Assembly (NCBI RefSeq): GCF_025345565.1
Contig: NZ_CP054475.1
Coordinates: 1,197,501-1,261,500 of the forward strand
Origin: Thalassolituus hydrocarboniclasticus
GTDB taxonomy: Bacteria; Pseudomonadota; Gammaproteobacteria; Pseudomonadales; Oceanobacteraceae
Length of the DNA stretch: 64,000 nt
Direction: 5' to 3'
The notes beneath the pieces are model-generated. The model worked only from the letters and a program-made list of their open reading frames with translations, ran no database searches and had not been told where the DNA came from. This document shows, in pieces, positions 41,209 through 42,738 of this stretch (the stretch's first letter is position 1; each line of letters starts with the position of its first letter). Position numbers and translations under genes: made by a program.

Positions 41209-41700
41209 ATGGGTAAATTGATATTACGTAAAATTATTGTGGCGCTGGTGTTCGCTGCGATTGTTCCTTTCATTGTTGCCGGCTTGTTTACTTCGCTGGT
41301 GACTGGTCTTCAACTCACCGATGGTACGGCGCTGACCGCCGATAACCTGATGAATGTTGCCGGTATGACCGAACTGCTGCTGGTGGTTGCTGTTCTGACA
41401 CTGGTGACCAGCTTGCTGTCTGCGCAGTTTGTTCCTTCCCGTCGTCGTCGTTTCCGTTCCAGTGGTACTGTGGTGGAAAGCGATGTGGAAGATGGTCGTG
41501 AGCGCGGTGTGGTTAAGTGGTTCAACGTGAAAAAAGGGTTTGGCTTTATTACCTGGGATCAGGGCGAAGATGTGTTTGTGCATTTCCGTTCTATCCGCGG
41601 TCAGGGGCACCGCTCTCTGACGGAAGGTCAGCGCGTGAAATTCACTGTGGTGCGTGGTCAGAAGGGCCCGCAGGCAGAAGATGTTTCAGCGGTTCGCTGA
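41209..41700 (+). CDS. Membrane-anchored cold-shock-domain protein
   Basis: 163 residues, starting at the ATG at 41209. Two hydrophobic helices (about 9-32 and 53-72) form a hairpin in the inner membrane. A basic R-R-R-R-F-R patch (78-83) follows, and residues 99-161 are a complete CspA-like cold-shock domain with RNP1 KGFGFI (109-114) and RNP2 VFVHF (122-126). Ordinary Csp proteins are free cytosolic single domains of about 70 residues. Here the RNA-binding domain would be tethered to the cytoplasmic membrane face. The gene stands alone, with inverted repeats in the leader and a very strong terminator. Confidence 0.9.
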
Positions 41701-41712
41701 AGCCTGAAACCG

Positions 41713-41748
41713 ATACAAAAAAAGCGGCTGTTGCCGCTTTTTTTGTAT
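41713..41748. terminator. 16-bp perfect bidirectional terminator
   Basis: A perfect 16-bp stem (41713-41728 with 41733-41748) has seven A before and seven T after the GCGGC/GCCGC core, with loop TGTT. It ends the cold-shock-domain gene on the plus strand and the suhB/small-ORF transcript on the minus strand. Confidence 0.92.
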
Positions 41749-41766
41749 CTGCAGTTTTCAGTTCTG

Positions 41767-41895
41767 CTATGCCTTGTGGCTTTGTGCCTGACTGATGGGC
41801 TGGGTATCGGTTTGATGCAGGCCGGGCTCATCGCAGCCCTGAGGCTCGGCGAACCATTGCAGAATCAGAGTGAAATATTGCCAGAGCAGTGTCAT
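41767..41895 (-). CDS. Putative 42-residue small protein downstream of suhB
   Basis: A 42-codon frame from ATG at 41895 to TAG at 41767. GGGAGGA ends six bases before the ATG, one of the best ribosome-binding sites in the window. The peptide starts with a hydrophobic, Trp/Phe-rich stretch (MTLLWQYFTLILQWF, residues 1-15) that could be membrane-associated, followed by a Gln/His/acidic tail with a single Cys. It lies 69 bases after suhB on the same strand and before the shared terminator, so it is probably co-transcribed. I do not recognise a family. The strong ribosome-binding site is the main support. Confidence 0.5.
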   Translation of the reverse strand: MTLLWQYFTLILQWFAEPQGCDEPGLHQTDTQPISQAQSHKA

Positions 41896-41964
41896 AGCGA
41901 GTCCTCCCGCGTTGTCTTATCTGAGTGTAGACAGGGCGCGGGAGGTTGCCAGCAGGCTGAGGTC

Positions 41965-42738
41965 TCAGTCTTTGGCGAGCAGGGCTTTCAGCAGGCGTGG
42001 GTTACTGACCACCAGATTGGCCGGAGCGCGCAGCAATGGCTGGCCGCTCACTTCTGACAGCAGACAACCGGCTTCGGAAGCCAGCAGGCCGGCAGCGTTC
42101 AGGGCAAACTCATCAACGTTGCTCAGCAGGGCACCCTGGAAGCGGTCAGCAGCTACGTAGCAGATAGACAGAGCGTTGGAGCCGATGTTGCGCAGATCAA
42201 AGCTCTTGGACATCAGACGCTGTAAACGCTGCAGCTGATCGAAGGCGGCTTCGTTGTTGCCCATTGGCTGGGTGTAACCAACGATGGCGTCGCTCAGGCT
42301 GTTTACGTTGCCGGTGCGGATGCGGCGGTTGTTCAGCTGGGCACCACGGCCACGGGAAGCGGTGAATTCATCACCATTGATAGGATTGAGGATCACCGAG
42401 TGTTCTGCTTTGCCGTTTTGCATGCAGCAGACGATGATGGCAAAAGATGGGATACCTACGCGGAAGTTGGAGATGTCGTCGATGACGCACACCTGCCACA
42501 CAGGCTGGTTGGCCTGTTCGCCGTTCTGACCGGTTTCACGGCCGTAAAAATTGTGCTCAGGCAGGGCTTTCTTCAGCTCAAAAATAATGCCTTTTTCCAG
42601 ACCAATGGTGCAGTCTGCCACAAACTTTGCTTTCTCCTGATCCGTGCTTTTGTACGAATCGAAGCGGTCCAGGCGACGGACCAGATCTTGACCAGCATTA
42701 CGCGCAGCGCGCAACGCCAAGTTCACCATGGGTTGCAT
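41965..42738 (-). CDS. suhB: SuhB homologue with degenerate inositol-monophosphatase active site
   Basis: 257 residues. The fold and many family segments are clear: the MQPM-N-ALRAAR start, F-T-A-S-R-G-R-G-A-Q-L-N, and the terminal lysine-rich helix. Position next to trmJ-cysE-iscR identifies it as suhB. Yet the metal-binding motifs of the phosphatase are lost: the GEE element is G-R-E-T-G (66-70), the DPLDGT motif is replaced by the shortened V-I-D-D-I-S-N-F (85-92), and WDxAAG is F-A-L-N-A-A-G (211-217). In E. coli SuhB joins the Nus complex for rRNA antitermination independently of phosphatase activity, so this protein may keep only that role. No frameshift or stop is seen, so it is not a pseudogene. 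Confidence 0.9.
   Translation of the reverse strand: MQPMVNLALRAARNAGQDLVRRLDRFDSYKSTDQEKAKFVADCTIGLEKGIIFELKKALPEHNFYGRETGQNGEQANQPVWQVCVIDDISNFRVGIPSFAIIVCCMQNGKAEHSVILNPINGDEFTASRGRGAQLNNRRIRTGNVNSLSDAIVGYTQPMGNNEAAFDQLQRLQRLMSKSFDLRNIGSNALSICYVAADRFQGALLSNVDEFALNAAGLLASEAGCLLSEVSGQPLLRAPANLVVSNPRLLKALLAKD

Follow-up and report, generated by a model that had tools for sequence, protein, structure and literature searches.

A small-protein gene conserved downstream of suhB in Thalassolituus and related marine bacteria, with a candidate sigma-S promoter inside a hairpin predicted to gate its translation

The transposase genes of IS10 and IS50 are a precedent for the kind of gating considered here, in which a hairpin in read-through RNA closes the ribosome site of a gene. 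In phage T4 genes e and I-TevI, as far as the accessible text of the sources goes, long upstream transcripts hide the ribosome site in a hairpin and a late promoter lying immediately upstream gives an RNA that lacks the 5′ strand and is translated (PMC3014915, PMC2988022). The accessible text of the same sources names T4 soc and gene 49 as blocked by hairpins too (PMC3014915, PMC2988022). The Salmonella Gifsy-1 isrK-orf45-anrP transcript is described, in the portion of the source available, as a read-through RNA so folded that the ribosome site is blocked (PMC4825925). On the side of promoters, the available parts of two papers give CTATACT as the RpoS −10 motif of P. putida, established by gel shift and mutation (PMC11784136), and CTAtacT as the sigma-38 −10 motif of E. 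coli, where the sigma-38 and sigma-70 motifs overlap and CTATACT is also readable by sigma-70 (PMC3923258). Neither a bacterial precedent for the arrangement described below nor a prior report on the small gene was recognized in the literature searched, which consisted mostly of papers other than subscription ones, seen in part, so that this absence is a weak one.

The window, i.e., the whole 64-kb stretch of Thalassolituus hydrocarboniclasticus DNA that was analyzed, contains an unlisted 42-codon frame at 41767 to 41895 on the minus strand, which is also the suhB strand; the ATG is at 41895-41893 and a TAG stop ends at 41767. The product has 42 residues, MTLLWQYFTLILQWFAEPQGCDEPGLHQTDTQPISQAQSHKA. 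The Shine-Dalgarno sequence GGGAGGA (41902 to 41908, minus strand) lies six bases 5′ of the ATG and mostly inside the 3′ arm of a hairpin, and frame, spacing, and motif are present just as the original prediction had described them. When the 64-kb window was scanned for GGAGG followed after 4 to 9 bases by an ATG with an open frame of at least 20 codons, four sites only were obtained, which speaks against a chance occurrence here. The remaining sites lead into frames of 216, 54, and 274 codons; by arithmetic on the coordinates, the 54-codon frame starts at an ATG inside the 216-codon one and in phase with it.

The start of the small open reading frame (ORF) is 69 nt from the suhB stop. On the other side, at 41712 to 41749, a bidirectional intrinsic terminator is common to both strands, serving the small ORF and a convergent plus-strand gene (41209 to 41700). 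Read from the sequence, it consists of GATACAAAAAAAGCGGC-AACA-GCCGCTTTTTTTGTATC, a 17-bp perfect stem with T runs in both directions. The original prediction had also placed the frame between suhB and a shared terminator on the same strand, with the shared stretch given as 16 bp. The automated terminator scan made no call for this 17-bp element, probably because its rule takes into account the T run past the stem. The convergent gene encodes a hydrophobic N-terminal part and a C-terminal cold-shock domain; by eye, a similar convergent gene seems to be present in many loci of the family.

The gene upstream, suhB (41965 to 42738, minus strand), encodes a protein with a strong match to the inositol-monophosphatase family and, as had been proposed, a degenerate sequence from which the catalytic motif is missing: alignment with SuhB chain 9j90 shows DPLDGTTNF replaced by CVIDDISNF and GEE replaced by GRE. 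The protein is the sole match at an E value of ≤1e-20 in this genome, is 100% identical to SuhB of T. alkanivorans TMPB967, and may be a pure Nus/antitermination factor.

Comparison of homologous loci indicates that the 42-codon frame is a genuine small-protein gene, one that is conserved among related marine bacteria. A homologue lies directly 3′ of suhB in 23 of 30 suhB loci, all from the same family (Thalassolituus, Oceanobacter, and others); one further locus, that of T. alkanivorans (G001), has a displaced ORF, and six have no ORF at that place. Profile searching found a single copy in each of 25 of the 44 family genomes, most of which either contributed a row to the profile or were identical to such a row, with G061 matched from outside the profile at an E value of 1.9e-8. 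The remaining 19 of the 44 gave no profile match, and the gene is therefore dispensable. A wider profile search of 244 genomes drawn from the order returned five matches at an E value of 0.001, all in the same family. Weak second matches inside genomes of the genus were left uncounted; the one that was read (L007) sits within a longer gene. Twenty further regions downstream of suhB were inspected (6 from the same family and 14 from others), and no homologue was recognized by eye in those 14. In G054, from another family, suhB is followed by CTATACT and by an ORF of 52 codons that has a ribosome site (L105).

The dN/dS ratio was <1 in all 14 pairs with a finite ratio, out of 20 pairs (five were saturated at synonymous sites and one was identical). 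Homologues are nonindependent samples; six pairs picked as roughly independent were pooled, giving 72.7 synonymous and 70.3 nonsynonymous changes (P = 2e-11 versus 25% synonymous changes expected and P = 6e-6 versus 33%). The window ORF and that of G001 differ by three synonymous changes and no nonsynonymous change. By these substitution counts the frame is under purifying selection. Since there are both homologues and purifying selection, the question of whether this is a gene is settled, and two expectations of the original prediction, conservation of the frame in relatives and a synonymous bias downstream of suhB, were borne out.

The core of the homologous peptides reads roughly W..L..LLQWL[AG]E.Q.CD[EQ]..LH, followed by a tail of variable length. 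In genus g7 the helix is four residues longer and three of four profile rows end in TCPLRRLP, which resembles the ACPLRKIA tail of the G006 peptide. The AlphaFold prediction (15 sequences) consists of a single helix at residues 3 to 16 and a low-confidence tail, with pLDDT block means of 88 and 82 over the first 20 residues. The hydrophobic start that had been noted in the peptide is confirmed, with a length of only about 14 residues. The modeled helix is short for a membrane span, and the peptide could have a peripheral or partner-binding role; probably, its N-terminal part is a short helix for binding to a partner or to the membrane surface, followed by a conserved polar tail (CDELxLH). No family in Pfam, NCBIfam, or PHROGs was matched by the peptides searched, no PDB sequence matched homologue profile A1, and plasmid and phage sequences contained no relative of the window peptide. 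These results point to a small-protein family that has no model in the libraries searched and that is conserved in marine bacteria related to Thalassolituus.

Small size, a hydrophobic N terminus, and the tight predicted translational lock described below would suit a type I toxin-like membrane peptide, for which tight gating would be expected and which would be compatible with a gate. We consider such a function quite unlikely, given that the hydrophobic helix spans only ∼14 residues, that the polar tail is conserved, and that the gene occurs as one copy per genome without an Rfam match in the window or plasmid or phage relatives of the window peptide.

Upstream of the ORF, a heptamer of the form CTA[CT][AG][CG]T lies 31 to 50 nt 5′ of the start in 21 of 24 homologues (12 CTATACT, 5 CTACACT, 2 CTACAGT, and 2 CTATGCT), a pattern expected, by arithmetic, about once per 2,000 positions at equal base frequencies. 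The window copy, CTACACT (41924 to 41930, minus strand), is an RpoS-like −10 element located inside the hairpin. No −10 box was found in G010 within the distance searched, and the −10 anchors of G017 and G021 were placed by hand and do not fit the heptamer. A −35-like CTGGCA (41947 to 41952, minus strand), read from the sequence, agrees with TTGACA at four of six positions and lies 17 nt before TACACT. The promoter scan reported no sigma-70 consensus site (by hand count, the CTGGCA/TACACT pair has 8 of 12 matches, at a threshold of 9), and the sigma assignment is therefore one that we infer. The genome encodes rpoS (463 bits versus a cutoff of 378.7), so that both sequence features used to recognize members of an RpoS regulon, a CTATACT-like −10 element and the presence of rpoS, were found. 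The small gene thus probably has its own promoter, of the sigma-S type. From the position of the −10 element, the mRNA of this internal promoter is predicted to have a 5′ leader at 41896 to 41917 (minus strand), which would lack the 5′ hairpin arm.

The hairpin itself is formed by an inverted repeat, CCTCCCGCG ... CGCGGGAGG, with an inner TGTCT/AGACA stem (41903 to 41945, minus strand), and is predicted to lock the Shine-Dalgarno sequence in read-through RNA: the CGCGGGAGG arm contains this sequence and is predicted to pair with CCTCCCGCG. The predicted unpaired probability of the window Shine-Dalgarno sequence is 0.00 in read-through RNA; for RNA initiated downstream of the −10 element, it is 0.38. 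Across the family, it was predicted to be ≤0.10 in 18 of 24 homologues versus 4 of 19 control genes, which were the window ORFs of at least 200 codons with a Shine-Dalgarno sequence. When the 5′ part was shuffled, no more than 5 of 100 shuffles were equally locked in 15 of 24 homologues; in the other nine more than 5 were, including 31 in G009, 54 in G006, 68 in G028, and all 100 in G010. The lock is weak or partial in G013, G033, G025, G028, and G009 and is not found in G010 (together 6 of 24). At least three Shine-Dalgarno bases pair 5′ of the heptamer in 19 of 24 homologues, and in these 19 the heptamer is therefore enclosed by the hairpin.

Arm sequences differ between species and their complementarity is kept. 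Among 17 representatives (G010, with no −10 box, was set aside, and G017 and G021 entered with their hand-placed anchors), cognate arms had a mean pairing energy of −25.9 kcal/mol and exchanged arms one of −15.6 kcal/mol, and none of 20,000 permutations reached the cognate mean; likewise, none was as low when genus g7 was left out. Individually, no foreign 5′ arm was as good as the cognate one in 12 of the 17, 1 of 16 was as good in four, and 8 of 16 were as good in G028. The covarying arms take in the Shine-Dalgarno sequence, and this pattern argues that the structure is selected for. A palindrome spanning the −10 element and the start region also occupies the usual position of an operator and could be read as a DNA site for a repressor of the small promoter. 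We regard that reading as highly improbable: the arms differ strongly between genera and are still complementary, and G001 keeps a U-G pair, whereas a single repressor would be expected to keep its recognition sequence.

A Shine-Dalgarno sequence within a stem is typical of RNA thermometers and riboswitches. If transcription started further upstream, the hairpin could act in the native mRNA as such a sensor, and some homologues are predicted to have a poorly accessible ribosome site even when the arm is absent. In favor of the gate, predicted accessibility in RNA begun after the −10 element rose in 21 of 23 homologues (all but G010), although by only 0.01 in G007 and G009, and dropped in G006 and G028. 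What is conserved, moreover, is the −10 heptamer (21 of 24), enclosed in 19 of 24, which makes a start past the 5′ arm likely. The arm sequences are not conserved, and an Rfam scan of the window gave 0 matches at the gathering score. A thermometer or riboswitch is therefore improbable.

Rearranged loci separate the hairpin from suhB. In G001, a close relative, 23.7 kb lie between the end of suhB (C3:111134) and the start of the ORF (C3:134834), and the ORF keeps the hairpin and the −10 box despite this distance. The hairpin has a single change, from a C-G to a U-G pair (CCTCCCGTG with CGCGGGAGG). Since the ORF retains the repeat away from suhB, the repeat goes with the ORF rather than with suhB, and in G001 the ORF apparently requires a separate promoter. 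Conversely, no −10 heptamer was found on the suhB strand within 300 nt after suhB in nine of nine loci without the ORF. Both ends of the G001 interval (L012, L002) were read; there is an MFS-type exporter-like gene next to suhB and a TonB-type receptor-like gene next to the ORF, and the interval is possibly a siderophore island placed exactly at the suhB/ORF boundary.

These loci bear on whether the inverted repeat is instead a terminator or 3′ stabilizer of the suhB mRNA, unrelated to the small ORF. A T run follows the repeat in genus g7, where the element looks like a true terminator, and also in G032 of g2; the g7 lock, having this T run at its end, could combine both roles, terminator and lock. 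No T run follows the repeat in the window, though, and neither the repeat that stays with the displaced ORF in G001 nor the failure to find the −10 box where suhB is present and the ORF gone fits a suhB element. As a general account, this one is very unlikely.

A distinct small ORF, also conserved, follows suhB in genus g4 (L115 to L119; MTKWFDTIKSMIQQL...RRRRR). It mostly has an arginine-rich (basic) tail, and its own profile matches five of nine g4 genomes, two of them profile rows. Homology with the small gene is unsupported (hhalign probability of 0.4% in profile comparison), and the g4 ORF was retained as a positional counterpart only. It keeps CTATACT and a ribosome site, and an evident intrinsic terminator stands between suhB and the ORF in three of five loci. 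A Shine-Dalgarno lock is predicted in none of the five (unpaired probability of 0.15 to 0.52; between 39 and 84 of 100 shuffles gave values as low). Only a weak hairpin follows suhB in L116, and the ORF in L119 is displaced by 2.3 kb.

In another arrangement, the small protein would be made from the suhB operon message, with the ORF simply as the last gene and the inverted repeat incidental. The common strand, the gap of 69 nt with no evident T-run terminator in the window, and the position directly after suhB in 23 of 30 loci all agree with it. Against it are the covarying arms and the predicted locking of the Shine-Dalgarno sequence in read-through RNA, the G001 gene that kept its −10 box when unlinked from suhB, and the g4 counterpart with terminators between suhB and ORF in three of five loci. 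We judge this arrangement unlikely. Coexpression with SuhB, which the original prediction had proposed, is probably wrong on the same grounds: the Shine-Dalgarno sequence is predicted to be locked in read-through RNA with CTACACT inside the lock, and in G001 the hairpin and −10 box are kept at 23.7 kb from suhB.

We favor, as reasonably probable, a family-conserved small gene with its own, probably sigma-S, promoter embedded in a hairpin that gates translation. The proposed course is as follows. (i) RNA polymerase reading in from suhB would produce the full hairpin, and the small protein would remain untranslated. (ii) A start at the internal promoter, predicted at ∼41917, would give a leader of ∼22 nt without the 5′ arm, and the ribosome site would thereby be freed. 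(iii) The resulting message of roughly 0.2 kb, ending at the shared terminator, would be translated. Synthesis of the peptide would thus be confined to times at which its own promoter is active, plausibly stationary phase or stress.

Whether such a gate extends beyond this gene was approached through the −10 and ribosome sites of the same genome, in which the pattern CTATACT-Shine-Dalgarno-ATG has four other sites versus one for the reversed pattern. The four belong to other genes, three with long frames and one with a frame of 86 codons. A lock through pairing upstream of the heptamer is predicted at the 86-codon frame (L114, G000:C1:2820514-2820553; unpaired probability of 0.01, with 4 of 100 shuffles as low) and at L111 (0.09, with 8 of 100 as low), whereas L113 (0.26, 22 of 100) and L112 (0.77, 69 of 100) are unlocked. 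The L114 frame is unrelated to the small ORF and has a hydrophobic front part, and its CTATACT is enclosed by the predicted lock; on this structure prediction, it is possibly a second gene with the same gate. The predicted locks at L114 and L111 could be a sign that the gate is used more widely, but the number of sites (four) is too small to tell.

The broadest reading, to which we give about an even chance, is that a sigma-S promoter within a covarying hairpin constitutes a T4 lysozyme-type gate on a bacterial chromosome, with a new small-protein family strictly tied to its own promoter and insulated from suhB read-through. Lineages would then solve the same problem differently, by a lock, by a lock fused with a terminator (g7), or by a separate terminator (g4), and the gate may occur beyond this gene. 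If this is true, the promoter-inside-hairpin lock of phage T4 would also be a natural bacterial means of isolating a small gene from the read-through of its neighbor. A conserved −10 box flanked by covarying arms, with the Shine-Dalgarno sequence at their end, could then serve as a search signature in other genomes and may lead to hidden small genes with promoters of their own.

The locus shares features with several described systems. Like other unannotated bacterial small proteins (<50 amino acids), the peptide has a short helix and a flexible tail and is under purifying selection; unlike them, the window peptide is matched by no family model. As in RpoS (sigma-38) promoters, CTATACT or CTACACT is present (17 of 24 homologues) without a consensus −35 element, the difference being that the candidate promoter here is placed inside a hairpin. 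The Gifsy-1 transcript is alike, as far as its source was available, in that a fold of the read-through RNA blocks the ribosome site, but there the block is lifted in trans by the IsrK small RNA, and the available text mentions no promoter within the hairpin (PMC4825925). T4 genes e and I-TevI, in the accessible descriptions, have both a hairpin that hides the ribosome site and a promoter whose RNA lacks the 5′ strand, and by this analogy a gate working like that of gene e is likely. In contrast to T4, the gene is a small-protein gene on a bacterial chromosome, the promoter is RpoS-like rather than T4 late, the arms covary over several genera, and the gate is a prediction from sequence.
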